Part shown: piece by piece, positions 24,114 to 40,705 of the stretch
Layout: every line of letters begins with the position of its first letter
Numbering within the stretch: the first letter of the stretch is position 1
Assembly: GCA_016777005.1 (NCBI GenBank)
Contig: JADHSF010000001.1
Span: 1-64,000, forward strand
Origin: SAR86 cluster bacterium
GTDB lineage: Bacteria; Pseudomonadota; Gammaproteobacteria; Magnimaribacterales; Magnimaribacteraceae
DNA: 64,000 nucleotides
Direction: 5' to 3'
Program-made: the position numbers and the translations under genes
Notes under the pieces: generated by a model
Told to the model about the DNA's origin: nothing
The model's database searches: none
What the model saw: the letters and a program-made list of their open reading frames with translations, nothing else

Positions 24114-25067
24114 CTATTTGCAAGATAAAAGAAGGACTTTAATCACAACATCGCTGAAGCTTAGGCCTTCATAAGAAGCCGCCTTAGGCAATAAACTAGT
24201 TTCCGTTAAGCCCGGAATAGTATTTACCTCGATTATCTGAAAATTTCCTTCTTTATCTTCAATAAAATCTACCCTTCCCCAATGACTACAACCTAATGAA
24301 GAGAAAGCATGCCAAGCGTAGTCTTTTATTTCTTGTAATTTTTGAACAGATAAGTCTGCCATTGCATATTCTGTTCCTGAAGCAGCATATTTTGAATTGA
24401 AATCATAGAATTCTCCAGCTGGCTGAATGTGAATAGGATGAAAGATTTCATTACCTAGGATCGCAACCGTTAATTCTCTGCCTTCTACAAAAGCCTCAAC
24501 CACAATAGAAGAATCATACCTGGCTGCTTCTCTCATAGCCTCTTCTAGGCTACCTTGTCCAGGTCTAACGATAGTAATGCCAAAGCTTGAACCTTCGTTT
24601 GCTGGCTTAACAACAAACGTCTTATCAAGAGCAGTTATGTCTTCTTCCCCAGATAAATGAGGGGTTAGTTTCATTTTAGAATTACCAGCATTTACTATTT
24701 CTACGAAATCAGGAGTGGGTAAAAGTAACTCTCTCCAAATTTTTTTTGCTTCAGTTTTATTCAAGGATATTTGACAAGACAATGCATCGCTTCCGGTAAA
24801 TTTTATGCCCTTTGATTGAAGAACATCTTGAATAAATCCATCTTCTCCACCTCTTCCATGAAGCGCTATGAAAGCTACATCATATTCTTCAGAAATATTA
24901 TTTGCATCTTCCTCTGAGATTAAATCTATATGTGTATGCAAAATATCATTTTCTTGCAATGCCTTTGAAACAGCAATACCAGATTTTAGAGATATATCTC
25001 TTTCTGCAGACCATCCACCCGAGAGGACTAATATTTTTTTTTGCTTTAAGGTTGCAATTGAATCCAT
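24114..25067 (-). CDS. ddl: D-alanine--D-alanine ligase
   Basis: ATP-grasp ligase making D-Ala-D-Ala for peptidoglycan. The 317-residue protein has 'VLSGGWSAERDISLKSG', 'ALHGRGGEDGFIQDVLQ', 'VVKPANEGSSFGI' and the C-terminal 'EVNTIPGLTETSLLPKAA'. It ends the dcw cluster, directly after murC. In most gammaproteobacteria ftsQ-ftsA-ftsZ would follow; here a short gap leads into rpsF. Confidence 0.97.
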   Translation of the reverse strand: MDSIATLKQKKILVLSGGWSAERDISLKSGIAVSKALQENDILHTHIDLISEEDANNISEEYDVAFIALHGRGGEDGFIQDVLQSKGIKFTGSDALSCQISLNKTEAKKIWRELLLPTPDFVEIVNAGNSKMKLTPHLSGEEDITALDKTFVVKPANEGSSFGITIVRPGQGSLEEAMREAARYDSSIVVEAFVEGRELTVAILGNEIFHPIHIQPAGEFYDFNSKYAASGTEYAMADLSVQKLQEIKDYAWHAFSSLGCSHWGRVDFIEDKEGNFQIIEVNTIPGLTETSLLPKAASYEGLSFSDVVIKVLLLSCK

Positions 25068-26459
25068 CTAAAAATGTTCCCTTTCAAATTGCTTGCTGAT
25101 AGAAGATATGTCTCCCGCTCCCTGAAAAATAAATACTGTATTTATGTCAGGTGAATCAGTGATTCTCTTTAAAACAAGATCTTTATTCTCAACTAGCTCA
25201 ACATTAGAAAAACCTGAATCTTCTAAAGATTTCTTGATATTTGAACTATCTATTCCTTTTATGGGCTTTTCTCCAGCGGGATAAACGTCCAAAAGTATCA
25301 AATTATCGACATCCTTTAAAACCTGAATAAATTCATTAAATAAATCCTTTGTTCTGGTATATCTATGTGGCTGAAAAACCATAGTTAAATTATGTTCGGG
25401 ATAAGAATTTTTTATTGCTTCGATTGTTCTTTGTATCTCTGTAGGATGATGTCCATAGTCATCTATATAGACTTTGGAAGATTTCTCATTAACCTGCTCT
25501 CCTAATATTTGCATGCGCCTATCAATGCCCATGAAGCCCTCAAGAGACTCCTTTATGACTTTGAGAGGAATATTCTCTAGTAAGCATAAAACGATTGCTG
25601 CTGCTGCGTTAAGAGCGTTATGTTGACCCAGCATATTGAGGGTGATGTCTATTGAGTTAAGGTTGGAAGTAATCTTAAAAGTAGATCTCCTGCCATCAGA
25701 CTCGTACTCTGAGAGCACATAATCATTCTTAGGGTCAAAGCCATAACTTATGTGTGACCTTTGAAAGCTTGTTTTGAGTTCACTTATAATGGGATCATCT
25801 CCACACACTATAGAAATTCCATTAAAAGGAAGTTTTTTTATAAATTCTAAAAAAGCATTTTTTAGATTATCAAAATTATCTTCGTAATTAATTAAGTGAT
25901 CAGGTTCGATGTTTGTAATTACAGAAATTGAGGGTTGAAGCAGAAGAAAGGATTTATCACTTTCATCAGCCTCAGCAATTAAGTACTCTCCTTTGCCCAG
26001 TTGTGCGTTGGAATTGAAACTATTAATGATACCTCCATTTATAAATGTTGGATCCAATTGGGCGTGGCTCATAATAGAGGCTATCAAGCTAGTTGTGGTT
26101 GTCTTGCCATGCGTACCTGCGACGGCAATACCTCTTTTATTGTTCATTAAACTGGAGAGCATTTCTGCTCTAGCCAAAACAGGTATCAATCGTCTTTTGG
26201 CTTCAAGAATCTCCGGATTATCGTCGAGTATAGCTGTAGATCTTACGACCATCTCAACTCCATCTAGATTTTCCGATTTATGATCGTAATAGACATTAAT
26301 ACCCAGATTCTCAAGGCGAATGGTATTAGATGAATTTGAATTGTCAGAACCAGAAACTAGATAACCTAAATTATTCAACACCTCGGCAATGCCGCTCATA
26401 CCGCTGCCGCCAATACCAATGAAATGGATATTTTTTAATTTAAAACTTGAGGGATTCAT
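25068..26459 (-). CDS. murC: MurC, UDP-N-acetylmuramate--L-alanine ligase
   Basis: Adds L-Ala to UDP-MurNAc. Mur ligase of 463 residues: N-terminal UDP-binding domain ('HFIGIGGSGMSGIAEVL'), central ATP domain with 'AGTHGKTTTTSL' and a C-terminal domain with 'VYIDDYGHHPTEIQRTIEA'. It overlaps the end of murG by 20 bases; an upstream in-frame alternative is not needed. murB, which sometimes follows murC, is not present. Confidence 0.98.
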   Translation of the reverse strand: MNPSSFKLKNIHFIGIGGSGMSGIAEVLNNLGYLVSGSDNSNSSNTIRLENLGINVYYDHKSENLDGVEMVVRSTAILDDNPEILEAKRRLIPVLARAEMLSSLMNNKRGIAVAGTHGKTTTTSLIASIMSHAQLDPTFINGGIINSFNSNAQLGKGEYLIAEADESDKSFLLLQPSISVITNIEPDHLINYEDNFDNLKNAFLEFIKKLPFNGISIVCGDDPIISELKTSFQRSHISYGFDPKNDYVLSEYESDGRRSTFKITSNLNSIDITLNMLGQHNALNAAAAIVLCLLENIPLKVIKESLEGFMGIDRRMQILGEQVNEKSSKVYIDDYGHHPTEIQRTIEAIKNSYPEHNLTMVFQPHRYTRTKDLFNEFIQVLKDVDNLILLDVYPAGEKPIKGIDSSNIKKSLEDSGFSNVELVENKDLVLKRITDSPDINTVFIFQGAGDISSISKQFEREHF

Positions 26460-27504
26460 TAATACAATTAAATATTCTTTCTGAAGTGGAACTTGGGAAA
26501 ACCTTTCCCGCTGCTCGTTTCATTGAGTTTCTTTTATTATCATCTTTTTCGAGATCAATTAGAAGTTCGTATAGGATTTCAGCATTAGAAATATCAGATT
26601 CGATCATCTGAGCAGCTCCTCTATCAGCAAGAAATTTAGCATTAAAAAACTGATGATTATCGGCAGACCAGGGAAGCGGAAGTAAAATACATGCTTTTTG
26701 TGCTGAGCAGATCTCCGTAACACTCATCGCCCCAGAACGAGAAATAATAATATCGGACTCTCTATATGCTGTAGCAATATCTTCAATAAATTCTTTAATG
26801 ACAAACTTTACTCCAGATTTTATATAAGCTTCTTTGAGTTTGGTTGTATTAAGTTGCCCCACTTGATGTGTAAGAATCCAATGTGAGAGATTTTTTTTAT
26901 CATGTATGGCTTGAATTAAAATATCATTAATTTGCTGTGACCCTTGACTGCCACCAAGAATCAAAATTCTAAACTTATCGTCTTTTATCTTATCTAATTC
27001 TGCGATTCTAGAAATTTCATCTCTTATAGGATTGCCTACATTAATCACTTTTTGGGTCGCTTGTTTAAAAGTCCCAGGAAAAGCTTCAAAAGTTCTTTTT
27101 GATGTCCTGTGTAATATCCTATTAGAAATACCCGGTATGCTATTTTGTTCATGAATGTATAAAGGACATAAAAAAATAGTTGCCAAGCCTGGAGCCAGAG
27201 ACAGATACCCTCCAGTTGATATTGCCAAATCAGGTTTTATCCTAATAATTAAGACAATACTCTTTAGAATTGAGATTGATAAAGTAAAAATCGCACCTAT
27301 CTTTTCAATAAAATTTTTTCCTAAGAAACCCTTTGCTTGAATAGGGAAGAAATGAAAGCCTTCCTCTAAAGCTATTCTCTCCTCTAGACTATCTAATTTT
27401 CCAATCCAAGAAATATCATTTCCGTGTTCTTCAAATTTCTTAGCGATAGTGAGTGCTGGAAAGACATGTCCTCCTGTACCTCCGGCAATCATGAGTATTT
27501 TCAT
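26440..27504 (-). CDS. murG: MurG, lipid II-forming N-acetylglucosaminyltransferase
   Basis: Transfers GlcNAc to lipid I on the inner leaflet. The 354-residue GT28 enzyme has 'IAGGTGGHVFPALTIA', 'STGGYLSLAPGLA', 'HEQNSIPGISNRIL' and 'ILGGSQGSQQIND', with the acceptor and donor domains in order. Start overlaps the ftsW stop (ATGA). Confidence 0.97.
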   Translation of the reverse strand: MKILMIAGGTGGHVFPALTIAKKFEEHGNDISWIGKLDSLEERIALEEGFHFFPIQAKGFLGKNFIEKIGAIFTLSISILKSIVLIIRIKPDLAISTGGYLSLAPGLATIFLCPLYIHEQNSIPGISNRILHRTSKRTFEAFPGTFKQATQKVINVGNPIRDEISRIAELDKIKDDKFRILILGGSQGSQQINDILIQAIHDKKNLSHWILTHQVGQLNTTKLKEAYIKSGVKFVIKEFIEDIATAYRESDIIISRSGAMSVTEICSAQKACILLPLPWSADNHQFFNAKFLADRGAAQMIESDISNAEILYELLIDLEKDDNKRNSMKRAAGKVFPSSTSERIFNCINESLKF

Positions 27505-28673
27505 CAGAATTCGGCTCTATGTTTTATTATCGCTATGGGCATTGAATTTTTATTTTCATAGTCTACCCTTAAAATTAATCCGATCATTAAACAAACCATT
27601 ATTAAGTTTGTACCTCCATAACTTATTAATGGCAAGGTTAAACCTTTAGTTGGAAGCAGGCCACAAGCGACCCCTACATTGATAAAGGTGTGCATTCCAA
27701 GAAGTAGCGCAACTCCATATGAAAAATAAAAACCAAAAAAATTCTTTCTAAGGAGAGATTCTCTACCGATATAAAATATTCTAAATGATAAAGCAAAAAG
27801 CAAAGCAACTATCATTAGACCACCTAAAATTCCTGTCTCCTCGACAATCACTGAAAAGATAAAGTCAGTATGTGCATCGGGTAAATAACCCATTTTCATA
27901 AGGCTTTGACCTAGCCCAACACCAAACCAGTCTCCTCTTCCAATAGACATTAAGGATAGGGTCAATTGATATCCACTGCTCCAAGGATTACTCCACGGAT
28001 CCATAAATGAAATAATCCTCTCCCATCGCCAGGGTACAAGAGCAATCATTAGGAATATTCCTATACATCCAAGAAGAGCGACCACCATAAATTGTTTTAA
28101 CTTTACTCCAGCAACAAATAAAACCCCAAGGACAGCTATAAATATAACAGCAGATGAGCCTAAATCAGGTTGTATCAAAATTACTGAAATTACACTGATA
28201 ATAATTAATGCAGGTCTAAAAAAACCCATCCAATGTGATTGAATTTGTTTGATACGTCTTACAGAATAACAGGACACATAAAGTATACTTAGAAACTTCA
28301 TTACCTCTGAAGGCTGCAAGCCAAAGCCAGCAATTCTTACCCATCTATTAGCCCCATTGACCTCTACGCCTATTCCCGGAACAAAAACTAAAAGTAGTAA
28401 CAAAAATCCTAAGGTTAAAAGCAATCTATCGTAAGTTAACCAAAAATTTAATGGGATTAAAAAAAATATTAGCAATCCGATAATACCCAAAATAAAATGA
28501 ATTAATTGTCTGTTAAATAGTGCCGAAGGATTTCCATATATTAAATCTGAGAAATGCACAGCTGCAGAAGCTAAAATTAAAAGACCACAGAAGCTAAGCG
28601 TTAAGAATAAAAAAATTAATATGAAATCTAGCTTGAGGTAGTCAAAATTGTGAAAAAAATTTAATCTGTCCAT
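27504..28673 (-). CDS. ftsW: FtsW, septal SEDS peptidoglycan glycosyltransferase
   Basis: A SEDS-family membrane protein of 389 residues with about ten helices that polymerises lipid II at the septum together with FtsI. Conserved parts include 'GANRWVRIAGFGLQPSEVMK', 'QPDLGSSAVIF', 'DAHTDFIFSVIVEETGILGG' and the final 'LPLISYGGTNLIM'. It sits between murD and murG, which marks it as FtsW and not RodA. Confidence 0.96.
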   Translation of the reverse strand: MDRLNFFHNFDYLKLDFILIFLFLTLSFCGLLILASAAVHFSDLIYGNPSALFNRQLIHFILGIIGLLIFFLIPLNFWLTYDRLLLTLGFLLLLLVFVPGIGVEVNGANRWVRIAGFGLQPSEVMKFLSILYVSCYSVRRIKQIQSHWMGFFRPALIIISVISVILIQPDLGSSAVIFIAVLGVLFVAGVKLKQFMVVALLGCIGIFLMIALVPWRWERIISFMDPWSNPWSSGYQLTLSLMSIGRGDWFGVGLGQSLMKMGYLPDAHTDFIFSVIVEETGILGGLMIVALLFALSFRIFYIGRESLLRKNFFGFYFSYGVALLLGMHTFINVGVACGLLPTKGLTLPLISYGGTNLIMVCLMIGLILRVDYENKNSMPIAIIKHRAEF

Positions 28674-29966
28674 CTACAGATCATTCACAAGTTGCTTAAA
28701 CCTGTCTCCTCTTTCCTGATAATCACTGAACATATCTAAACTTGAGCATGCAGGTGAAAGCAAAACATAATCACCTTCTTTTGCCATTGATACTGTAATT
28801 CTAAATGCTGACTCTAAGTCTAGTACACTCAACGACTCCGAGTGTTTATTCATTGAATTAAAAATCGTTGCTTTGTCTTTTCCGTAAATAAGTATTTTTC
28901 TTACATTACTTAACTCAGATAAATCTGCAGAAAGAATATCCTGCCCTTTTAGGTCTCCTCCACATATCAGATAAATATTTCCGTCTTGACTATATTGATT
29001 AGCTGAACTTACTGCCTTTATCATTGCATCAATATTTGTAGCTTTTGAGTCATTAATATAGCTAACGCCTTCACATTGCTTAATAAACTCAAATCTATGC
29101 GGTAATTTTCTAAAGCTCTTAAGGCTCTTTAGGATACCTTCATAGAGATTTTTATTATTTTTAATGCCCTTATAATGCTTTGAATACGTATTTAAGACCT
29201 CAATGCTAGCTCTTAAATTTTGTTTATCGTGTAGAGGCCAATCTAATAGAGTAGAAGACTCTAAAAAACCTTTTGGTAACTCATGATTATGATAATTCTT
29301 GTAATCCTTATCTAAAGAATTTCTATTATTAAAAGAAATATTAAAAGCAGAATGCTTCAAGACCTTTTCTTTTATTGCCTTGTACTCTTTAAAAGTTCCA
29401 TGCCTATCTAAATGGTCTTGTTCTATGTTTAAAAGTAAGCCTATTTCAAATTCAATTTGATTTAATAATTCGAGTTGAAAACTCGAAACTTCAATAATAG
29501 AGACATCGACCTCTTTTCCTAAATAATCAAGTACAGGTTCTCCTATATTGCCTAAAGCAGCTATCTTTAAATTGGGATAAAAAAACTCAAATAAGTGCTT
29601 GATTAATAGGCAAGTAGAAGTCTTACCATTTGTTCCTGTAACTAATATCTTTGTACTTTTATGAGTTACCAGAAATTCTTGTATATCTGATGAAACTTCT
29701 AATTTATTTTTTCTTGCATGACCGAAAATTACATGATCACTTGGTACTCCAGGACTTGGATAAATCTTTGAGACCTGTGAAAAAAGCTCATTGTCCAGTT
29801 TCGGATTAATAACGACTTTAGGAATCTCTTGGATAATTCTTTTTAGATTAGGATTATCTTTCCAGTCTTCTATCAAAAATATTTTTTCGTAAGATTTAGA
29901 TAAATAATCTATTAGTGAAGAGCCTGTTGCACCAAGGCCAATGACTAATGGAAATTTCTCTTCCAC
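28674..29966 (-). CDS. murD: MurD, UDP-MurNAc-L-Ala--D-Glu ligase
   Basis: Adds D-Glu to the stem peptide. Mur ligase of 430 residues with 'LGATGSSLIDYL' near the start, ATP loop 'ILVTGTNGKTSTCLL', 'NDSKATNIDAM' and a C-terminal 'YVLLSPACSSLDMFSDYQERG'. The start is GTG, 5 bases after mraY. The stop TAG directly precedes the ftsW ATG. Confidence 0.96.
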   Translation of the reverse strand: MEEKFPLVIGLGATGSSLIDYLSKSYEKIFLIEDWKDNPNLKRIIQEIPKVVINPKLDNELFSQVSKIYPSPGVPSDHVIFGHARKNKLEVSSDIQEFLVTHKSTKILVTGTNGKTSTCLLIKHLFEFFYPNLKIAALGNIGEPVLDYLGKEVDVSIIEVSSFQLELLNQIEFEIGLLLNIEQDHLDRHGTFKEYKAIKEKVLKHSAFNISFNNRNSLDKDYKNYHNHELPKGFLESSTLLDWPLHDKQNLRASIEVLNTYSKHYKGIKNNKNLYEGILKSLKSFRKLPHRFEFIKQCEGVSYINDSKATNIDAMIKAVSSANQYSQDGNIYLICGGDLKGQDILSADLSELSNVRKILIYGKDKATIFNSMNKHSESLSVLDLESAFRITVSMAKEGDYVLLSPACSSLDMFSDYQERGDRFKQLVNDL

Positions 29967-29971
29967 CCTTT

Positions 29972-31054
29972 CTATCTAAGCCTAAGAAGAGCTAATCCAA
30001 GCAAAACCAACATAAATGTAATAATCCAAAACCTGACAATTACTCGGGGTTCGGGCCAGCCTTTTAACTCATAGTGATGATGCAAAGGAGCCATATTAAA
30101 TACTCTTTTACCTGTTATCTTAAATGAAGCTACTTGAACAATAACTGATAATGCTTCGATTACAAATAACCCGCCCATTACCAGTAATACATATTCGTGT
30201 CTTATGATCACAGTCACAATACCTAAAGCAGCTCCTAGAGACAGAGAACCTACATCACCCATAAAAACTTGGGCAGGATATGTATTGAACCAAAGAAAAC
30301 CTATTCCTGCACCTACCAAAGCACCACAAAATACTATCATCTCACCTGTACCAGGCAAATAAGGTATATTTAGAAAATCTGAATAAATAATATTTCCTGC
30401 CAGATAACCTATTATACCTAGTCCTGCAGCTACCATTACACAAGGTAAAATGGCAAGTCCATCCAATCCATCGGTTAAATTAACAGCATTGCTAGTTCCT
30501 ATGACTACAAAGTAGGAAAGTGCTATGAAACCTAACCCCAAAGGAATAGAAACATCTTTAAAAAATGGAACTATCAAACTGGTTTCAGCTATATTTTCTT
30601 GGCTTATATAAAGGTAAGAGCATGCAATGAGAGCAATAATAGACTGCCAAAAAATTTTATTAGAAGCGGATAGTCCATCGCTAGATTTATATTTTATCTT
30701 TAAACGATCATCTGCCCAGCCCAGAATACCGAAGGACATTGCCGTTAGAAACGCTACCCATAAATATCTATTTTCTAAGTCTCCCCATAAAATTACGCTT
30801 AGGAATATAGAACTAAGTATTAGTGTACCCCCCATAGTTGGCGTTCCTTGTTTAGAAAGATGAGTTTCAGGACCCTCTTCTCTTACGACCTGCCCAACCT
30901 GTATATCTTTCATTTTATTTATAAACCTTGGACCCAAGATTAATGAAAAAATTAACGAGGTTAATGTTGCTAATATTGCCCTAGTAGAAAGAAACTCAAC
31001 GACACGAAAAGGGCCAAAAAACTCGGAAAGATATTCAAATAATGGTAGTAGCAT
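29972..31054 (-). CDS. mraY: MraY, phospho-MurNAc-pentapeptide translocase
   Basis: Integral membrane enzyme that makes lipid I from UDP-MurNAc-pentapeptide and undecaprenyl phosphate. The 360-residue protein has about ten helices and the catalytic stretches '[19 protein letters not shown]', '[13 protein letters not shown]' and '[15 protein letters not shown]', plus '[12 protein letters not shown]' near the end. Confidence 0.98.
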
Positions 31055-32389
31055 TTAATTTTTTAGTTTATCGGCAATAAGGTCCATTCTTGTTGATCTT
31101 GAGCCTTTCACTAATAATATAGTGTTCTGGTCTAATACTGAAACTAAGTACTCATATATCTCATCATGATTATCAAAAATTATTAAAGAATCCGTTTTAT
31201 CTAAATCAATGGATGACCATGTATCACCCAAGAGAAGGGTTTTGTCTGTTTTATCCTTAGCATAATGATACATTTCTTTATGAATCTCAGCCGACTCTTC
31301 TCCTAATTCTTTCATTTCTCCAAGTACACAAATTTTCTTTCCTTTCATTTCTTCTAACGAATCTAGAGCATTCTTCAACGAAGCAGGATTAGAATTGTAA
31401 GAATCATCTATTAAAATTGAACCAGATTTTAATTTAAATATCGACAACCTTCTTTGAGGAAGATCTACAGCTACAAGGTTCTCTTTGATTTGAGATAATC
31501 CAATACCACAATGAAAAGCCACTCCAAAAGATAGGGCGGCATTCAGCGCATTATGAAATCCAATGCCATTTATGAGTAGCTCTTCTTTTGAGCCATCAAA
31601 ATATAAATTAAAACCGGTAAGATTATTCTCTAAATCTGACTTTATTCCCGATATCCTAAAATCAGATTCTTTGTCAAAACCAAATGACAAGACTTCTTTT
31701 GCATTAGTTCTGTCTTTCCAGGATTGATAAAAATTTGAGTCTTTTGGTAAAAAAGCAATTCCATTATTTGTTTGGAAATCTAAAATATTTCCTTTCTCTA
31801 CAGCAATAGAATTTGTATCCGAAAGACCATCTAAATGACCCATTGATACATTAGTTATAGCAGCAATATCTGGATTTACTTGCCTAGTTAATATTTCTAT
31901 TTCACCAGGTTCGCTAGTTCCCATTTCAATCACAGAATATTGAAAATTATTTTGCAAGGTAAGCAAGGAAAAAGGGACGCCTATCTGATTATTCATGTTC
32001 CCCAATGTTCTATGGCAGTTGTTATCTTTATTCAGAAGACTAAAGATAATTTGTTTAGTACTTGTTTTGCCATTTGTGCCAGTGATCCCAATTACCTTAC
32101 CTCTAAATTCATTTCTGTTATAAGCAGCAACACTACTCATAAAGTCAAAGGTATCATCGACAAGAATTTGAGGAAAATCTATATGGGTTGATTGACTTAC
32201 AACAGCAGCTGAAGCACCTTTCTGTTTTGCTTCTGTTAAGAATTCATGGCCATCAAAATTTTTACCTAACAAAGAAATATATAATTCACCAGGACTGATG
32301 GTTCTGGAATCTATACTAAAACCTTCAAAGTTAACGGACTTTCCAATGAGCCTACCTTTAGAGATTTGAGCTAGTTGGTTTAAATCCAT
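31055..32389 (-). CDS. murF: MurF, UDP-MurNAc-tripeptide--D-Ala-D-Ala ligase
   Basis: Completes the pentapeptide by adding D-Ala-D-Ala. The 444-residue Mur ligase has the N-terminal domain ('SIDSRTISPGELYISLLG'), ATP loop 'VIGITGTNGKTSTKQI' and 'LIDDSYNSNPASLKNALD'. Gene ends directly at the mraY start, and begins 3 bases after murE. Confidence 0.97.
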   Translation of the reverse strand: MDLNQLAQISKGRLIGKSVNFEGFSIDSRTISPGELYISLLGKNFDGHEFLTEAKQKGASAAVVSQSTHIDFPQILVDDTFDFMSSVAAYNRNEFRGKVIGITGTNGKTSTKQIIFSLLNKDNNCHRTLGNMNNQIGVPFSLLTLQNNFQYSVIEMGTSEPGEIEILTRQVNPDIAAITNVSMGHLDGLSDTNSIAVEKGNILDFQTNNGIAFLPKDSNFYQSWKDRTNAKEVLSFGFDKESDFRISGIKSDLENNLTGFNLYFDGSKEELLINGIGFHNALNAALSFGVAFHCGIGLSQIKENLVAVDLPQRRLSIFKLKSGSILIDDSYNSNPASLKNALDSLEEMKGKKICVLGEMKELGEESAEIHKEMYHYAKDKTDKTLLLGDTWSSIDLDKTDSLIIFDNHDEIYEYLVSVLDQNTILLVKGSRSTRMDLIADKLKN

Positions 32390-32392
32390 AAC

Positions 32393-33847
32393 TTATTTTA
32401 TTTTCAAGAATTCAGATACTATATCTTCATCATTAAACTCAAGGAGTGCATTTCCGATATTTTGGTGAGATTCGTGTCCTTTTCCTGCAATTAATAATAC
32501 ATCTTTGTTTGAACTTTTCTTAAATTCAGTAAGAATCTTCTCTATTGCCTCTCTTCTGTCAGGAAATATTAAAATATTTTCTGACGATTCTGTCCCTGAA
32601 AGAATATCACTAATGATCACTTTTTCATCTTCCCTTCTAGGATTGTCATTAGTCAATACAACCACATCGGCATATTGTTCAGCCACACTACCCATCAAAG
32701 GTCTTTTTTGCTTATCACGATCCCCTCCACATCCAAATAAACACCAAATCATACCTTCATGACTTCTTCGGATTTCTTTTAATGCACCTTCAAGTGCGTC
32801 AGGAGTGTGGGCATAGTCAATATAGATTGGATTCTTTTCATTAAAGATCCTCTCTAATCTGCCTTTGGGTAGAAGTATGTCTTTACTGATACTTGAAATT
32901 TCTCTAAGAGATTTCCCTTCTAAGACAAGAACGGCAATAGAGCAAATAATATTTGAAGCAAGATATCTAGAGATTGTGCTTAGATCGAAATTAATGTTAT
33001 CTTCAAAAGCTTTAAGGTTTACATTGAGACCTCCTTTAGATTTCTCAAATGTAGCATAGAAATCTGCCTCTTTCTCAATAGAAACACTATAAGTCTTTTG
33101 ATTTAATTTCTTCAGTTCTTGGTACAGATTTTCTCCAAATTCACTATCTATACAAATGATGTTGTTATTTGGTGATAAATCATAAAAGAGTTTCTTTTTT
33201 GAATTTTGATAGTTTTTTAGACTCCCATGATAATCTAAATGATCATGAGAAAAACTGGTTAAAATGGCGTAATCTATTTCTAGCCCAGCCAATCTATTCT
33301 GCTCTAAGCCATGGGAAGAGGCTTCCATGGCTATATATGAGGCTTTATTATTTAGAGCATCTCGGAGGAAACTATTGATCTGGATTGGATGTTCTGTAGT
33401 CAAAACTGATTCTTTAAGGGTATAACCGTCAATAGAAGAATTGATCGTGCTCATGTAACCGCATTTACTTTGCAGTAAATTACTCATACCAGAGAAAGTC
33501 TCAACAGAGGTTGTTTTTCCATTGGTGCCAGTAACACACACTATTTTCAATTTAGTGCTTGGGAGACCGTAAAATCTTGAAGCAAATAAACCTAAGTATT
33601 CTCTTAAATCAGGAAAGTAAATAATGTTTTGGTCCTTAGTACTTATCTTGTTGTCCGATATAACTAAAGCAGCTCCTTTTTCTAATGCCGAATCTACAAA
33701 ATCAATGCCATCTTTTTTATGCCCCTTTAGCGCAAAAAATAGACCCCCAGGAGATAAGGATCTACTATCAATATGAAGACTTGAAATTTCTATGTCCTTA
33801 AAACCCTCTAGATCAGAGAGTTCAAATAAAAAATCAGAAGTTTGCAT
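32393..33847 (-). CDS. murE: MurE, UDP-MurNAc-dipeptide--meso-diaminopimelate ligase
   Basis: Adds the third stem-peptide residue. The 484-residue Mur ligase has 'VTGTNGKTTSVETF', 'YIDYAHTPDALEGAL' and the motif DNPR ('LTNDNPRREDE'), which marks enzymes that use meso-diaminopimelate, as expected for a Gram-negative cell. Directly follows ftsI. Confidence 0.97.
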   Translation of the reverse strand: MQTSDFLFELSDLEGFKDIEISSLHIDSRSLSPGGLFFALKGHKKDGIDFVDSALEKGAALVISDNKISTKDQNIIYFPDLREYLGLFASRFYGLPSTKLKIVCVTGTNGKTTSVETFSGMSNLLQSKCGYMSTINSSIDGYTLKESVLTTEHPIQINSFLRDALNNKASYIAMEASSHGLEQNRLAGLEIDYAILTSFSHDHLDYHGSLKNYQNSKKKLFYDLSPNNNIICIDSEFGENLYQELKKLNQKTYSVSIEKEADFYATFEKSKGGLNVNLKAFEDNINFDLSTISRYLASNIICSIAVLVLEGKSLREISSISKDILLPKGRLERIFNEKNPIYIDYAHTPDALEGALKEIRRSHEGMIWCLFGCGGDRDKQKRPLMGSVAEQYADVVVLTNDNPRREDEKVIISDILSGTESSENILIFPDRREAIEKILTEFKKSSNKDVLLIAGKGHESHQNIGNALLEFNDEDIVSEFLKIK

Positions 33848-35497
33848 CTATATCTCAAGGTCCCTTAATAAAAATATTTGCTCCATAATGCTGGAAAATA
33901 AAGGAGCTGATACTTTACCGCCAGAGTAATCATCCCCAGCAAGTCCATGCAATACAACGACTGCTAAAAATTCTGGGCTATCATGAGGTACGAAACCTGC
34001 AAATGTTGCCGTGTAAGTAGTCTCAGCCTCAACAGTCTCTTTGGCAGTGCCCGTTTTACCTGCAACTACCCACTTTGCAAGTTTAGCTTTAGATGCGGTT
34101 CCTCCTTGTGAGTTAACCGTACTAACAAGCATGTCCACTATTTTTTGATTTGTATCTTCATTAATAACCCTTTCATTTAAAGATTCGGCAAAAGAATTTT
34201 CTTTAAATAAATTTAACTCTATGAAATTTCCTTGATTGGCAAAAACCGAATAGGCCTGAGCAATCTGAAGGGCCGATAAAGTCATTCCATAACCATAACA
34301 AGAACTCACTTTATCTCTTAAAGTAAATTGAGTTTCGTGAGGTAAAAAGCCTTCTCTTGCAGGCAGCATAATAGACGTAGGATATCTGCCGATACCAAAT
34401 TTTTTATAATAGTTTACTAGATGTTTTATATCCTGACCTTCACATAATTTGATCATTCCAACATTACTTGAATAAGAAATAATTTCTGAGAGATTAAGCT
34501 GACCATAATCTCGAAAATCACTTGTTTTATATCCTTCAAACTCAATCCATCCTGGAGAGGTATTAACTATTAAATCTTCATGTATTTTTTCTGATTCTAG
34601 AATTGCAGACATGGCCAAAGGTTTGAGTACAGAACCTGGTTCAAAAACATCTATTGTTGCTCTATTTCTAAGTATAGACATATCATGAAAGTTTTTTCTA
34701 TTAGAGGGATCGAAAGAAGGATGATTTACTAAAGCAAGTATATCGCCCGATTTAGGCTCAATGACAACCACTGATCCTGCCTTGGCATTATATTTTTTAA
34801 CAACCTTATCTAGTTCATGATAAGCAATTGACTGGATATTTATATCTATAGTTAATTGAATATCATTTCCTGAAACAGCCTCTATTCTTTTACCTTCAAG
34901 TTTACTATTTCTTGAACCTTTAATTCCTTGAAAGCTGCCCTCTTTTCCTAAAAGCTCGTTATGAAATACTAGCTCTGTACCTTGAATGCCTCTTCTGTCG
35001 ATATCTGTAAGACCAACAACATGAGAAGTGATATTTTTCTCCGGATAACTTCTTCTTAAATTTTCTCTAAAATAAATTCCTGGAATCTTCTGACTTTTAA
35101 TACTTGTTCTTATTTGATTATTGACATTCCTACTAATTTCTTTGAATCCAGAAGATTGCTTTTTTAATCCCTCAAGTAAGATAACAGGATCTTGATTTAA
35201 GGCACTGGAAAGAAAAATAATATTTTCTTTATCATATGTAAATTGGGAGAAATCTAAACCAACGCTATAACCTTTTACATCCAATGCAAGAACTTTATTA
35301 TTTCTATCTAAAATCTTTCCTCTAGATGCTAAAAGAGAATAATTAGAATCTAGCCTACTAAAGACTTGATCATCAAGAAAAATATCCTGATAAATTTGAA
35401 GGTAGATCAGTCTAGCAATTAGAGAGCAAAACCCTAAAAGAATTATTAATTGGATAAATACTACCCTTCCCGAAGAATAGAGAATCCTAGTAGACAT
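33848..35497 (-). CDS. ftsI: FtsI (PBP3), septal peptidoglycan transpeptidase
   Basis: Class B penicillin-binding protein that cross-links septal peptidoglycan with FtsW. The 549-residue product has a short cytoplasmic start, a membrane helix (about 13-33), the pedestal domain, and a transpeptidase domain with 'EPGSVLKP' (SxxK), 'SYSSNVG' (SxN) and 'AGKTGTAKE' (KTG). It begins 10 bases after the ftsZ stop, whereas in nearly all gammaproteobacteria it follows ftsL. Confidence 0.97.
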   Translation of the reverse strand: MSTRILYSSGRVVFIQLIILLGFCSLIARLIYLQIYQDIFLDDQVFSRLDSNYSLLASRGKILDRNNKVLALDVKGYSVGLDFSQFTYDKENIIFLSSALNQDPVILLEGLKKQSSGFKEISRNVNNQIRTSIKSQKIPGIYFRENLRRSYPEKNITSHVVGLTDIDRRGIQGTELVFHNELLGKEGSFQGIKGSRNSKLEGKRIEAVSGNDIQLTIDINIQSIAYHELDKVVKKYNAKAGSVVVIEPKSGDILALVNHPSFDPSNRKNFHDMSILRNRATIDVFEPGSVLKPLAMSAILESEKIHEDLIVNTSPGWIEFEGYKTSDFRDYGQLNLSEIISYSSNVGMIKLCEGQDIKHLVNYYKKFGIGRYPTSIMLPAREGFLPHETQFTLRDKVSSCYGYGMTLSALQIAQAYSVFANQGNFIELNLFKENSFAESLNERVINEDTNQKIVDMLVSTVNSQGGTASKAKLAKWVVAGKTGTAKETVEAETTYTATFAGFVPHDSPEFLAVVVLHGLAGDDYSGGKVSAPLFSSIMEQIFLLRDLEI

Positions 35498-35507
35498 GGT
35501 CTCCTAA

Positions 35508-36656
35508 TTAATCTAACTGTGTTCTTACAAAGGAAGGAATATCCAGATATTCATCATTATCTGTTTCTTTTTTTAAAGCCTTTTCTACAAGTGGTGGATT
35601 TTCTAGAAGTTGTTTGGCTGCATCACTCAAAGGTAAAGGTTTCCTTTCATTTATAGAATTTAGGCTGTGGGGTTTATTTGCAGCTGTCTGTACAGAAGAA
35701 TTTAATCCTGTGGCAATGACAGTTACTGTTAAATCATTTGAAGATGATTCATCTAAAACCGTCCCAGTAACTATGATCGCTTCTGGAGAAGCAAATTCAT
35801 TAATACAATCCCCAACTGCTTTTATTTCTCCCAAAGAAAGTTCGGGTCCTGCAGTTATATTAACCAGAACTCCTTTTGCGTCTTTAAGACTTATATCTTC
35901 TAGAAGCTTGCTTGCTATTGCTTGTTCAGCTGCAATTCTTGCTCGATCAGGTCCACTAGATGTACCTGTACCCATCATTGCAGTTCCTTTTTCGGACATG
36001 ACAGTTTTTACATCAGCAAAATCTACATTTATTAATCCAGGTCTAATTATAATATCCGAAATACCTCTAACAGCTCCGCCGAGTACGTCATTTGCCTGTT
36101 TGAAGGCTTCGAGCATGCTGCAATCTTCTCCAAGAACTTCTAAGAGTTTCTGGTTAGGTATTGTTATCAATGAATCAACTTCTTCAACTAATTCTTTAAT
36201 GCCCTCTTGGGCAATCTTCATTCGCTTAGCTCCTTCTAATTCAAAAGGTTTAGTAACAACCGCTACTGTAAGAATTCCAAGTTCTTTAGCTACTTGAGCT
36301 ACTATTGGAGCAGCGCCTGTACCTGTACCTCCACCCATTCCAGCTGTTATGAAAACCATATCAGTGCCTTTGAGCATATCTCTAAGCTTATCTCTATCCT
36401 CAAGAGCAGCCTCTCTTCCAATCGCAGGATTTGCTCCTGCTCCTAGTCCATCGGTTATCTCCATACCTAGAATAAGTTTAGTACTAGCATTATTCTTATC
36501 TAGAGCCTGCTTATCGGTATTAATAGAAATGAACTCAGCGCCTTCAATGCCACATTCGACCATATGCTGCACAGCATTTCCGCCACCGCCTCCAACACCT
36601 ATAACTCTTATTGAAGCATTTCCTTTAACTTCCTCTATAATTTCCCACTCACTCAT
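35508..36656 (-). CDS. ftsZ: FtsZ, tubulin-like division ring protein
   Basis: GTPase that polymerises into the Z-ring. The 382-residue protein has 'IRVIGVGGGGGNAVQHMV', the tubulin signature 'GGGTGTGAAPIVA', a variable linker and the C-terminal peptide 'DEYLDIPSFVRTQLD' that binds FtsA. lpxC, normally downstream, is absent; ftsI follows instead. Confidence 0.98.
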   Translation of the reverse strand: MSEWEIIEEVKGNASIRVIGVGGGGGNAVQHMVECGIEGAEFISINTDKQALDKNNASTKLILGMEITDGLGAGANPAIGREAALEDRDKLRDMLKGTDMVFITAGMGGGTGTGAAPIVAQVAKELGILTVAVVTKPFELEGAKRMKIAQEGIKELVEEVDSLITIPNQKLLEVLGEDCSMLEAFKQANDVLGGAVRGISDIIIRPGLINVDFADVKTVMSEKGTAMMGTGTSSGPDRARIAAEQAIASKLLEDISLKDAKGVLVNITAGPELSLGEIKAVGDCINEFASPEAIIVTGTVLDESSSNDLTVTVIATGLNSSVQTAANKPHSLNSINERKPLPLSDAAKQLLENPPLVEKALKKETDNDEYLDIPSFVRTQLD

Positions 36657-36681
36657 ATCTAACCTCTCTTTTAATTAATTG

Positions 36682-37908
36682 TTAAAGATTTCCGCCAAAC
36701 CATCTAGAAATCCTATTTAAAATATTCTTGTCTCTGTGTATATAATTTAAATGATCCTCTTGCATTTGCTTCTTTCCATATAGCAATAGACCAACCGATG
36801 TAGCATAAATTGGGTTATTAATAATCTCAGAAAAACCTTCAACTGAATGAGGCGAGCCCATTCTCACTGGAGAATGAAAAATCTCTTCTGCTAATTCTGT
36901 GGCCCCTTCAATTTTTGATGCTCCACCAGTCAACACTATCCCTGCAGGAATTAATTCATCAAAGCCGCTTAGACTTAACTTCTGTTGAGCCATACTAAAT
37001 ATCTCTACATATCTTCTTTCTAAAACATCTGCTAATGCCTGTCTTGATAACTCTCTTTCCGGTCTTCCTCCCATGCCAGGAACCATCATAATTTCTTCAG
37101 GTCTTGTCATTGAGCTTACGGCACAGCCATATCTTTGTTTAATTGTTTCTGCTTGCGTAGGAGGAGTTCTGAGAGCTTGAGCGATATCATTCGTCACATG
37201 ATCACCAGCTATTGGAATAACATCTGTAAAACAAATAGATCCGTCAACAAAGACTGCGATGTCTGTCGTTCCTCCACCTATATCAATTAAACAAACTCCC
37301 AGATTTCTCTCGTCTTCAGTTAATACGGAGTAGCTCGACGCAAGTTGCTCTAAAACAAATGCTTCAACATCTAAACCAGCTGCACTTATGCATTTATGGA
37401 TATTTTGAGACGAATTTTCGCTGCATGTTACTAGATGCACCTTAGCTTCTAATCTTGAACCTGCCATCCCTAGCGGTTCCTTGATACCATCTTGTTTATC
37501 TATGATGTAATCTCTAGGCAATACATGCAGTAGTCTTTGATCTGCAGGTATTGCCATAGCCTGAGCAGTCTCAATTACTCTATCTACATCAGTGAACTTG
37601 ACTTCACCATCACGTATAGGAACAACGCCTTCAGAGTTTAGACCTCTTATATGGCTTCCAGAGATACCAACATAACAAGATCCTATATGACAACCAGCCA
37701 TACTTTCTGCTTCTTCAATCGATCTTTTTATAGCTGTTGTTGTTGATTCAATATCGACAACAACTCCATTCTTGAGACCCTTAGAGGTGTGAGTGCCTAG
37801 ACCTGTTATTTCAATTTGTGGCCCTCTTGCTTCTGCAACAATAGCCACTACTTTTGATGTTCCTATATCAACACCTACAAGCATTTCATTCTTACTTACG
37901 TTACTCAT
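36682..37908 (-). CDS. ftsA: FtsA, actin-like tether of the Z-ring
   Basis: Membrane-bound actin homologue linking FtsZ to the divisome. The 408-residue protein has 'LVGVDIGTSKVVAIVAEA', 'CLIDIGGGTTDIAVF' and 'GIVLTGGASKIEG', and ends in the amphipathic membrane-targeting helix 'NRISRWFGG'. It overlaps the ftsQ stop by 4 bases. An internal ATG at residue 9 is an alternative start. Confidence 0.97.
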   Translation of the reverse strand: MSNVSKNEMLVGVDIGTSKVVAIVAEARGPQIEITGLGTHTSKGLKNGVVVDIESTTTAIKRSIEEAESMAGCHIGSCYVGISGSHIRGLNSEGVVPIRDGEVKFTDVDRVIETAQAMAIPADQRLLHVLPRDYIIDKQDGIKEPLGMAGSRLEAKVHLVTCSENSSQNIHKCISAAGLDVEAFVLEQLASSYSVLTEDERNLGVCLIDIGGGTTDIAVFVDGSICFTDVIPIAGDHVTNDIAQALRTPPTQAETIKQRYGCAVSSMTRPEEIMMVPGMGGRPERELSRQALADVLERRYVEIFSMAQQKLSLSGFDELIPAGIVLTGGASKIEGATELAEEIFHSPVRMGSPHSVEGFSEIINNPIYATSVGLLLYGKKQMQEDHLNYIHRDKNILNRISRWFGGNL

Positions 37909-38567
37909 ATTGCCTTCTCCATTTTTTCAGTGCTTATTGCAATAGCATTTCTGTATCTTAGATCTATATATTTGCTATGGTCTTTATTTCCTGAGCTCAG
38001 CTCGAACAGTATAAATTGCTCGAGACGTTCGAGCTGAACCCGGAAATCCCCTTTATTGAATAAGTAATTTGTTCCATAATTATCTTGTGCTTTTATAAAA
38101 TCAGTACCCTCCTGACCCAAGTGTTGTAATTTATTTCCCTTAAGATTAAGAACATTTTGCATAAGTCTTGCATAATTTAATAAAATTTCTACCTGATCAT
38201 CTGCACCAGAAATTGAAATCAGACTTAGGTTTTTTGACATACCGCCAGGAGATATAATCTTTCCTTCTTGTGTAAAAAATCTATCGTTTTCTAAAATAGC
38301 TAAAGGTTGATGTTCTTCAATTTCAATCAATGTTTTTTCATTGAAATTTTGAGTTGCCTTTATTATTGACACCCAAGAATTTGAAAATATTTCGTCTTTG
38401 TTGTTTGTTTGAACATTATTTACATGATTAGAAATTTTTGGTTCTAAAATAGCCATATTCGAAATGATTTCTTTTGAAAATTTTATAATGATTTGCTGAT
38501 CCGCAGACTGATTTTGAACAGAACAACCCGTCACCATTAGTAAAACAATGATTAGAAAGGACCTCAT
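37905..38567 (-). CDS. ftsQ: FtsQ-like divisome protein with a lipoprotein signal
   Basis: Recognised from position (ftsL-ftsQ-ftsA) and from FtsQ features: a POTRA-like part ending in 'NSWVSIIKATQNFNEKTLIEIEEHQPLAI' and 'FFTQEGKIISP', then a beta domain with 'RVQLERLEQFILFEL' and 'KYIDLRYRNAIAIS'. FtsQ bridges FtsA and FtsN sides of the divisome through FtsBL. The N-terminus is unusual: no 20-residue cytoplasmic tail, and 'MRSFLIIVLLMVTGC' reads as a lipoprotein signal with a clean lipobox (V12-T13-G14-C15). At 220 residues it is shorter than E. coli FtsQ (276). Both gene ends overlap neighbours by 4 bases, so the start is tightly fixed. Confidence 0.82.
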   Translation of the reverse strand: MRSFLIIVLLMVTGCSVQNQSADQQIIIKFSKEIISNMAILEPKISNHVNNVQTNNKDEIFSNSWVSIIKATQNFNEKTLIEIEEHQPLAILENDRFFTQEGKIISPGGMSKNLSLISISGADDQVEILLNYARLMQNVLNLKGNKLQHLGQEGTDFIKAQDNYGTNYLFNKGDFRVQLERLEQFILFELSSGNKDHSKYIDLRYRNAIAISTEKMEKAI

Positions 38568-38854
38568 CTGACTGAGCTCCTGTCTAAATAAATATTTTTA
38601 TCAGAAGCAGGGATAGTCATGCCTAGACTTTCAGTAGCGAATTTTCTCAAAGATATATGATTCTTAAAATACTTTACCTCTTCTAAAAGAAGGTTAGATT
38701 GAAAAGATAGGTCCTCTTTTTCTAATTTTAAATTTTCTAACACAGAAAATGATTTTCTATACTCATATGTCTGAAGTATCAATGCATAAGAGCTTATAAA
38801 AGAAGTAATTATCAATAGAGATATAAATATGATTTTGAAATTATCTTGTATCAT
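38564..38854 (-). CDS. ftsL: FtsL, divisome coiled-coil protein
   Basis: A 96-residue bitopic protein: short cytoplasmic start, membrane helix (about 8-27), coiled coil (about 30-75) and a short tail with 'RKFATESLGMTIP'. It pairs with FtsB and activates FtsWI. Placed after rsmH as usual, overlapping it and ftsQ by 4 bases each. Confidence 0.9.
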   Translation of the reverse strand: MIQDNFKIIFISLLIITSFISSYALILQTYEYRKSFSVLENLKLEKEDLSFQSNLLLEEVKYFKNHISLRKFATESLGMTIPASDKNIYLDRSSVR

Positions 38855-39732
38855 ATTTTTTCTGCCACTCTGAGGATTGCACTTCTGCTTCGTGGGTTTG
38901 TAGACATTTCAGTATTGGTAGGTTTTAAAAATTTTTCTCCAAAATATTTAAATTTTATATTTGAACCTATCCTGTCTTTTCCCTGAAAAAACCTCTTAAC
39001 AATCCTATCCTCCATAGAATGAAAACTTATAACAGCCAATCTACCACCACAACATAGAACATAACTGGCAGCTTCAAGAGCGCATTGCAGCTCATATATC
39101 TCTTGATTTATGAACATTCTGATAGCTCTAAATGAATTTGTAGCAGGATGTTTCTTCGATCTTTTGTAAACACAAGAAATAATAAGATCAGATAATTCCT
39201 TAGTAGATTCGATAGGTTTTTTTTCTCTTGATTCGCAGATTTTAGAAGCTATTTTTCTAGATGCTCTCTCTTCTCCTAAGGTCCAAAGTACATCTTCAAT
39301 TTCTTTTTTTGTAGCTGAATTAATCCATTCAGCTGCTGTTTGGCCCTGAGATGTATCAATCCTCATATCTAAAGGTCCATTTGATTGAAAACTAAATCCT
39401 CTTTCTGGATCATCAAGTTGTGTTGAGGAAATGCCTAAATCTATTAAAATTCCATCTATCTCACTGTCTTTAAAGAGTTTATTTAAATTAGAGAATGAAT
39501 CATTAATTAATTTAAATCTTATGTCATCAGTGAATTCTGAAGATAAATTCAAAGTAGCCATCTTATCTTTCTCTATTGAAGTCAAAGCTCCATCCTGATT
39601 TAGCTTTTTAAGAATTTTTAGTGAATGCCCTCCAGCTCCGAAAGTACAGTCTATATATCTACCATTTTGCTTAGAGACAAGATTCTCTAGCACTTCATCT
39701 ACCATTACCGCTTCATGGGTAGAATTGATCAA
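38851..39732 (-). CDS. rsmH: RsmH (MraW), 16S rRNA m4C1402 methyltransferase
   Basis: SAM-dependent methyltransferase for C1402 of 16S rRNA. The 293-residue protein has 'HEAVMVDEVLENL', 'YIDCTFGAGGHSLKIL', 'IDGILIDLGISSTQLDDPERGFSF' and 'VISFHSMEDRIVKRFF'. The start is TTG overlapping the mraZ stop (TTGA); the next ATG (residue 10) would cut the conserved start. rsmI, which methylates the same nucleotide's ribose, lies just across rnpB. Confidence 0.97.
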   Translation of the reverse strand: MINSTHEAVMVDEVLENLVSKQNGRYIDCTFGAGGHSLKILKKLNQDGALTSIEKDKMATLNLSSEFTDDIRFKLINDSFSNLNKLFKDSEIDGILIDLGISSTQLDDPERGFSFQSNGPLDMRIDTSQGQTAAEWINSATKKEIEDVLWTLGEERASRKIASKICESREKKPIESTKELSDLIISCVYKRSKKHPATNSFRAIRMFINQEIYELQCALEAASYVLCCGGRLAVISFHSMEDRIVKRFFQGKDRIGSNIKFKYFGEKFLKPTNTEMSTNPRSRSAILRVAEKI

Positions 39733-40208
39733 AACGGTATCTCCTCCAAACTCATTGGAAGATCCGCAATTAAATCTTCTCCTTTAATCTGGAGTCCAGA
39801 TTGCTTTTTTTCCCAGTTATCCAGGTTCCACAATTCAAATTTTGAGCCCATACCGACAAGAGCAACGTTTTCTTTCAAGGTTAAATCAGCAAATTCTCTT
39901 AAAATTTGAGGAATGAGAAGTGTCATTCTCTCACCAACCTCAAAATCGGTTACTGAGGCATTGCCTAATATTTTCCACTGAATAGACCTTACTTTTTGAT
40001 TAAGACCTCCAAGTGCCTCAAATTTCTGCGAAATCTCTTTCCATAGCTTTCCAGGATAGATTATTAATGCAGGGTATTGAGGATCTTTTGTAATAATCAT
40101 TTCCCCTTCGCAACTTGCCCTCAAAAGTTCTCTATATCTTGCAGGGATGACAATTCTACCCTTTGTATCAAGGGTTAAATTACTAGATCCATATATGCCT
40201 ATACTCAT
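39729..40208 (-). CDS. mraZ: MraZ, transcriptional regulator of the dcw cluster
   Basis: MraZ is a ring-forming AbrB-fold repressor of its own operon. The 159-residue protein has two domains: the first with an intact 'DTKGRIVIPARYRE' and the second with a weaker match, 'VGERMTLLIPQILREFADL'. It heads the dcw operon and is preceded by three phased AAAGTG boxes that are probably its own operator. Confidence 0.97.
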   Translation of the reverse strand: MSIGIYGSSNLTLDTKGRIVIPARYRELLRASCEGEMIITKDPQYPALIIYPGKLWKEISQKFEALGGLNQKVRSIQWKILGNASVTDFEVGERMTLLIPQILREFADLTLKENVALVGMGSKFELWNLDNWEKKQSGLQIKGEDLIADLPMSLEEIPF

Positions 40209-40223
40209 TTTATGTACTTATTA

Positions 40224-40247
40224 GCAAGTAATATTACATTATCTTGC
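40224..40247. promoter_or_regulatory. inverted repeat in the mraZ leader
   Basis: GCAAGATAAT and ATTACTTGC (minus strand) form a near-perfect inverted repeat with one unpaired base and a 5-base loop, 16 bases before the mraZ ATG. It touches the innermost AAAGTG box. It might be an RNA hairpin in the leader or a second protein site. Confidence 0.45.
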
Positions 40248-40272
40248 ACTTTGGCACACTTTTACACACTTT
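40247..40272 (-). promoter_or_regulatory. three phased MraZ boxes (AAAGTG) upstream of mraZ
   Basis: On the minus strand AAAGTG occurs at 40272-40267, 40262-40257 and 40252-40247, an exact 10-base period (AAAGTGtgtaAAAGTGtgccAAAGTG). MraZ is known to bind short GTG-containing direct repeats spaced about one helical turn, and AAAGTG is the form reported in Mycoplasma. The boxes lie 39-64 bases before the mraZ ATG. Confidence 0.8.
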
Positions 40273-40368
40273 AAATAAAATTACTAGTTAAAATGAAAAG
40301 AAAAGTACACTAAATAAAACTTGCAATTTACTGAATATAAAAAGATTGAAATAGATAATTTCTTGGGG

Positions 40369-40705
40369 AGTGAGTCAGCCTATAAGCCGGGTTCTGTCGT
40401 GGATAATCATTCATCTAGATTTTGCGTCACCACAAAATTCAAGCAACCTACCCTGGTCCAGCCAGGACTGACTTAAGGACCTCTATTTGGTCTTGCTCCA
40501 GACGGGGTTTACCATGCCATATACAGTTACCTGATATGCGGTGCGCTTTTACCGCACCTTTTCACCCTTACCTTAAAATATAAGGCGGTTTATTTTCTGT
40601 TGCACTATCCGTAGATTTGCACCTCCCAGGAGTTACCTGGCGTCTTGCCCAATGGAGCCCGGACTTTCCTCTCAAAATTTGAGCGATTATCTAGCTGACT
40701 CTGGC
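40369..40705 (-). ncRNA. rnpB: RNase P RNA, bacterial type A
   Basis: RNA subunit of the ribozyme that trims tRNA 5' ends. The minus strand has the hallmark 'GAGGAAAGTCCGGGCTCC' near the 5' end and 'ACAGAACCCGGCTTATAGG' near the 3' end, and P1 can form between GAGTCAGC and GCTGACTC at the two termini. Ends are placed from P1 and are accurate to a few bases. It fills most of the largest non-coding stretch (40209-40738) and lies just downstream of rsmI, as in Pseudomonas. The remaining part of this stretch is the mraZ promoter region. Confidence 0.97.

Follow-up and report, generated by a model that had tools for sequence, protein, structure and literature searches.

MraZ of Mycoplasma gallisepticum binds as an octamer to the target (AAAGTGKN3)3, and other factors, such as HsdC of Mollicutes, use comparable GTG repeats in direct orientation whose spacer differs by 1 nt (PMC5282649). 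In M. genitalium the motif is found once per genome, in the mraZ promoter, and the MraZ proteins of both M. genitalium and E. coli are described as repressors (PMC8475190). The MraZ site of Burkholderia cenocepacia consists of four 7-nt repeats with 3-nt spacers, adjoining the -10 element and located at the start point (PMC7761207). In N. elongata, deletion of mraZ lowers expression of the first cluster genes and its overexpression raises it (PMC9395523). Here we describe a 64-kb window (the whole stretch of SAR86 cluster DNA analysed, 64,000 nucleotides) in which AAAGTG repeats precede mraZ. Because these boxes are conserved in relatives and vanish where mraZ is lost, we consider it highly probable, at roughly 0.9, that they form the operator of MraZ, controlling mraZ and the division genes behind it by negative feedback.

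Phased AAAGTG boxes at the mraZ promoter

In the orientation of mraZ, the minus strand from 40272 to 40247 reads AAAGTGtgtaAAAGTGtgccAAAGTG (full array text, AAAGTGTGTAAAAGTGTGCCAAAGTG), its first base lying 64 bp ahead of the mraZ start codon at 40208. An earlier note had pointed to three AAAGTG boxes with exact 10-base phasing, and this held: the minus strand carries three perfect units whose starts are exactly 10 bases apart, with a phased-box score of 24/24, the maximum among ~2000 random 300-bp pieces of the window being 16. The features at and around the array, of which box 4 and the -10 overlap were not in that note, are as follows:

40367..40702, minus strand: rnpB, RNase P RNA (Rfam RF00010), the next gene upstream
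40292..40297, minus strand: -35 position TTCATT (weak, 3/6); sister genera have TTGACA at the same 18-bp spacing
40268..40273, minus strand: predicted -10 hexamer TAAAGT, in register with TATAGTG / TAAAGTG of relatives
40267..40272, minus strand: MraZ box 1, AAAGTG(TGTA), overlapping the predicted -10 hexamer
40257..40262, minus strand: MraZ box 2, AAAGTG(TGCC), near the predicted transcription start
40247..40252, minus strand: MraZ box 3, AAAGTG(CAAG)
40237..40242, minus strand: degenerate box 4, ATAATG, on the next turn after box 3; its core reads GTG in two sister families within the order
39729..40208, minus strand: mraZ, 159 aa, MraZ (PF02381)

With at most 3 mismatches allowed, the triple box gave three matches in the window, namely the array and its own +/-10 shifts, and window shuffles averaged 0.12 matches, none of 100 reaching 3. 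At the same tolerance it is a single site in the 1.2-Mb assembly (82.6% complete), which yielded no second MraZ target with up to 3 mismatches to the triple box.

Across the class, the majority of mraZ promoters have box 1 set into TTGACA-N17/18-TATAGTG, and several sister genera of the window retain TTGACA-N18-TAAAGTG. In these sister genera and in the class, the boxes clearly lie on the -10 element or directly behind it; in the window's own genus the -35 element is weak, and for this reason the putative transcription start near 40261, at box 2, is uncertain. Between the -35 and -10 positions, the window's family has a conserved CTAGTAATT, present in the window (40279-40287, minus strand) and in f1 relatives. 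No recognisable Shine-Dalgarno sequence precedes mraZ in window 40209-40240. Upstream, rsmI lies on the same strand as mraZ; no intrinsic terminator was seen between rnpB and mraZ, and read-through from rnpB may be an alternative source of mraZ transcript.

The encoded protein scores 64.1 bits against Pfam PF02381 (curated cut-off 23) and is 36% identical to E. coli MraZ. Its best NCBIfam match is TIGR00242 (87.4 bits, E 8e-25), under a cut-off of 98.35 that is a naming threshold and marks no defining trait; judged from this score, it is a divergent MraZ. The protein is intact, and so is its first DxxxR motif (D14-T-K-G-R18). The second reads ExxxR instead of DxxxR in the window's family (39912-39947, minus strand, residues about 88-99), and a 2-residue insertion directly follows its Arg in all aligned members of the order. 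Together, the altered motif and the insertion could change the DNA contact made by the second half of MraZ, for whose relatives solved structures exist (1n0e, 9qlr, 9sx6, 9qlg).

In the mechanism that we propose, MraZ would act as an AbrB-like, ring-forming regulator encoded just downstream of its operator. Several subunits of one oligomer would line up along one DNA face, with one GTG-centred box per subunit at each helical turn, a mode of binding that is consistent with the 10-bp period and with the literature. The -10 hexamer would fall mostly within box 1, and the start point and the early leader would be covered by boxes 2-4, so that bound MraZ would exclude RNA polymerase. The predicted outcome is that MraZ holds down its own gene, by negative feedback, together with the division and wall genes that run in the same direction, among which ftsQAZ is unusually near the front.

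Conservation of the boxes and loss together with mraZ

We searched 61 genomes for mraZ, and 48 carry it, counting the window. When the upstream regions of related mraZ genes were aligned, as the earlier note had suggested, the repeats proved to be kept: phased boxes stand at the matching place in 47/47 mraZ-bearing relatives of the order, all scoring 19-24 of 24 for three phased boxes (up to 200 bp upstream of mraZ). A score of at least 19 was reached by one of 1960 dinucleotide shuffles of the mraZ leaders. Position, orientation and phase of the boxes are maintained across families as the flanking DNA diverges. The family consensus is AAAGTGTGTA AAAGTGTGTA AAAGTGCAAG ATAATGTAAC, with boxes 1-3 nearly invariant and the fourth decayed and still in register. 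One sister family has a mostly decayed box 3 and a box 4 with a GTG core (..GTGTAAC); another has a variable third box and a mostly intact fourth. The simplest reading of these sequences is an ancestral four-box operator from which different boxes were lost in each family.

Five members of the order are without mraZ, and no phased boxes were found at the equivalent place in them (best scores 11-13, in the random range). In the mraZ-less family f4 (L236-L240), rsmI and rnpB are kept and ftsZ is directly next, ~35 bp after rnpB. Seven mraZ-less members of the class have no boxes upstream of rsmH either (scores 11-15). The site is absent where mraZ is absent: boxes and regulator go together, and their joint loss provides a natural knock-out that links protein to site without bench work. 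Two-box sites in the relatives are located at mraZ; the exception, seen in two species belonging to the window's genus, is one additional site (L263:1023-1038 and G012 C6:27889-27904) ~110 bp upstream of a TonB-receptor gene (the gene was read in L263).

The association extends well beyond the order. A blind scan of a species collection with the query AAAGTGNNNNAAAGTGNNNNAAAGTG listed at least 80 loci, and mraZ is next on the same strand in 50/80 of the triple-box loci listed. Among the matches listed, the exact triple box is found upstream of mraZ in Bacteroidota, Bacillota (including Clostridia), Actinomycetota, Spirochaetota and Pseudomonadota, with record titles that include Prescottella (Actinomycetota), Treponema (Spirochaetota) and several Pseudomonadota. 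The remaining listed triple-box loci, without mraZ, are mostly short tandem repeats. Arrays of AAAGTGARCT flanked by AAAGTGCCT / CTAAAGTT occur in Desulfobacterota and other genomes (L056, L058, L062, L094, L097, L100-L104, L108, L114-L117, L124, L126) and resemble a dispersed repeat family unrelated to MraZ. Within the class, 26/29 of the other mraZ leaders show three or more GTG cores spaced 10 bases apart.

These distributions bear on what the boxes are. Spaced AAAGTG units might be a short tandem repeat (a minisatellite) with no regulatory role, as several blind-scan matches, such as the AAAGTGARCT units in Desulfobacterota contigs, are indeed arrays. We rejected this origin, which was already largely refuted and which we regard as barely credible, because the boxes track mraZ, vanish with it, and hold place, orientation and phase across families. 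That a different regulator binds the boxes and merely happens to control the mraZ promoter is very improbable, if a shade less so: the resemblance of the HsdC repeats lends it some substance, but it sits poorly with the co-loss with mraZ, with the 10-bp unit shared by known MraZ sites and with the association with mraZ across phyla.

Other alternatives accept a MraZ site and concern its anatomy or its sign. The conserved ATAATG after box 3 could, instead of a decayed fourth box, be a -10 element or belong to a leader RNA structure, given that GATAAT resembles a -10 and that the leader of the window, folded by itself, is somewhat more stable than its shuffles (z -2.1). It is, however, in exact 10-bp register and carries GTG in two sister families, and folding 13 relatives jointly gives next to no consensus structure (-0.46 kcal/mol) and no compensatory change; we therefore hold this to be unlikely, and on the same consensus fold rejected a leader RNA hairpin. 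Slightly less likely still is that MraZ acts here as an activator or a context-dependent regulator and not as a repressor. The N. elongata expression changes, for both deletion and overexpression, favour it, whereas box 1 on the predicted -10 with boxes 2-4 downstream is a repressor position, and the MraZ proteins of E. coli and M. genitalium have been described as repressing. Because loss of mraZ lowers downstream expression in N. elongata, MraZ need not be a repressor in every species; at this locus we favour a MraZ operator that represses.

Position of ftsZ in the division cluster

With mraZ as its first gene, the window carries an apparently unbroken run of 15 genes, in which neighbours overlap or are separated by no more than about 30 bp; mraZ is followed by:

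38851..39732, minus strand: rsmH (mraW)
38564..38854, minus strand: ftsL
37905..38567, minus strand: ftsQ, divergent, assigned by profile comparison only
36682..37908, minus strand: ftsA
35508..36656, minus strand: ftsZ, the sixth gene behind the operator
24123..35497, minus strand: ftsI-murE-murF-mraY-murD-ftsW-murG-murC-ddlB, with gaps of at most about 30 bp

FtsQ has no Pfam assignment and was recognised by comparing its profile with that of E. coli-type FtsQ (E 1.6e-20 over 193 aligned columns). Given these overlaps and short gaps, the mraZ promoter probably drives a single long transcript, and control of the whole division set by MraZ is plausible. As in the canonical gammaproteobacterial dcw cluster, the same genes run from mraZ to ddlB; unlike in that cluster, ftsQ-ftsA-ftsZ follow ftsL instead of ddlB, so that ftsZ is gene 6 and not 15. 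The gene order thereby bears out the earlier proposal that ftsQAZ is now close to this promoter. A truncated cluster, with mur/fts genes missing between ftsL and ftsA, was rejected, these genes lying behind ftsZ.

The canonical order, with ftsQAZ after ddlB as in E. coli, prevails in most of the class and was found in 11/11 class genomes whose retrieved sequence covers the whole cluster. Two families, the window's own and a sister, have ftsQAZ (or ftsAZ, ftsQ being undetected) ahead of ftsI; in a third family, ftsZ alone directly follows mraZ and ftsA is still behind ddlB. Over the loci compared (window 24123-39732, L181-L198 and L236-L240), relocation from the end of the dcw cluster to its front concerns ftsQAZ in two families and ftsZ alone in two, and ftsZ is near the cluster front in every examined mraZ-bearing family of the order. 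A distant small genome (L249) likewise places ftsZ between rsmH and ftsI.

We tentatively suggest, at somewhat less than even odds, that this small-genome order brought ftsZ to the front of the MraZ cluster in two ways (ftsQAZ behind ftsL; ftsZ behind mraZ), making the operator a direct feedback switch that acts on ftsZ over a short distance, similar to the arrangement in mycoplasmas, and that one sub-branch then lost mraZ and boxes together, leaving ftsZ behind the RNase P RNA gene. The relocation would, we infer, serve tighter control of ftsZ. This shift in gene order is of more interest than the operator itself, and the rearranged cluster offers a testable case of whether division control in streamlined genomes is altered when ftsZ sits near a self-regulated promoter.

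Comparison with known MraZ sites

The array is a new case of an already known operator type and is ordinary in kind; what it adds is the co-loss control, the anatomy of four boxes with a -10 overlap, and the relocated ftsZ. It had been described as Mycoplasma-like rather than enteric, and the letters do fit the Mollicutes consensus, but the contrast with enterics fails: E. coli shares both the period and the GTG core, and the triple box stands at mraZ in several phyla. Altogether, these data point to the AAAGTG triple being a MraZ operator form in broad use, not a peculiarity of Mycoplasma, and the enteric GTGGG and Mollicutes AAAGTG forms look like variants of one operator.

With the Mollicutes (M. 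gallisepticum, M. genitalium), the locus shares the AAAGTG[T] unit, the period of 10 and three direct repeats upstream of mraZ, and, with M. genitalium, a motif that is single in the genome. It differs from them in that the SAR86 host has a full mur/fts set, the third box is followed by C and not G/T, a degenerate fourth box is present, and box 1 overlaps the predicted -10.

In E. coli K-12, the boxes upstream of mraZ are TCAGTGGGAA ATTGTGGGGC AAAGTGGGAA with a 10-bp period, the third box being AAAGTGGG. Both loci thus have direct repeats with a GTG core and three main boxes in the mraZ leader, whereas E. coli favours GTGGG after the core, is looser in the AAA, and has boxes that begin roughly a helical turn farther from the -10, on its downstream side. 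The B. cenocepacia site is similar in its 7-nt repeats and 3-nt spacers that adjoin the -10 and overlap the start point, with four repeats there as compared with three good and one decayed here.
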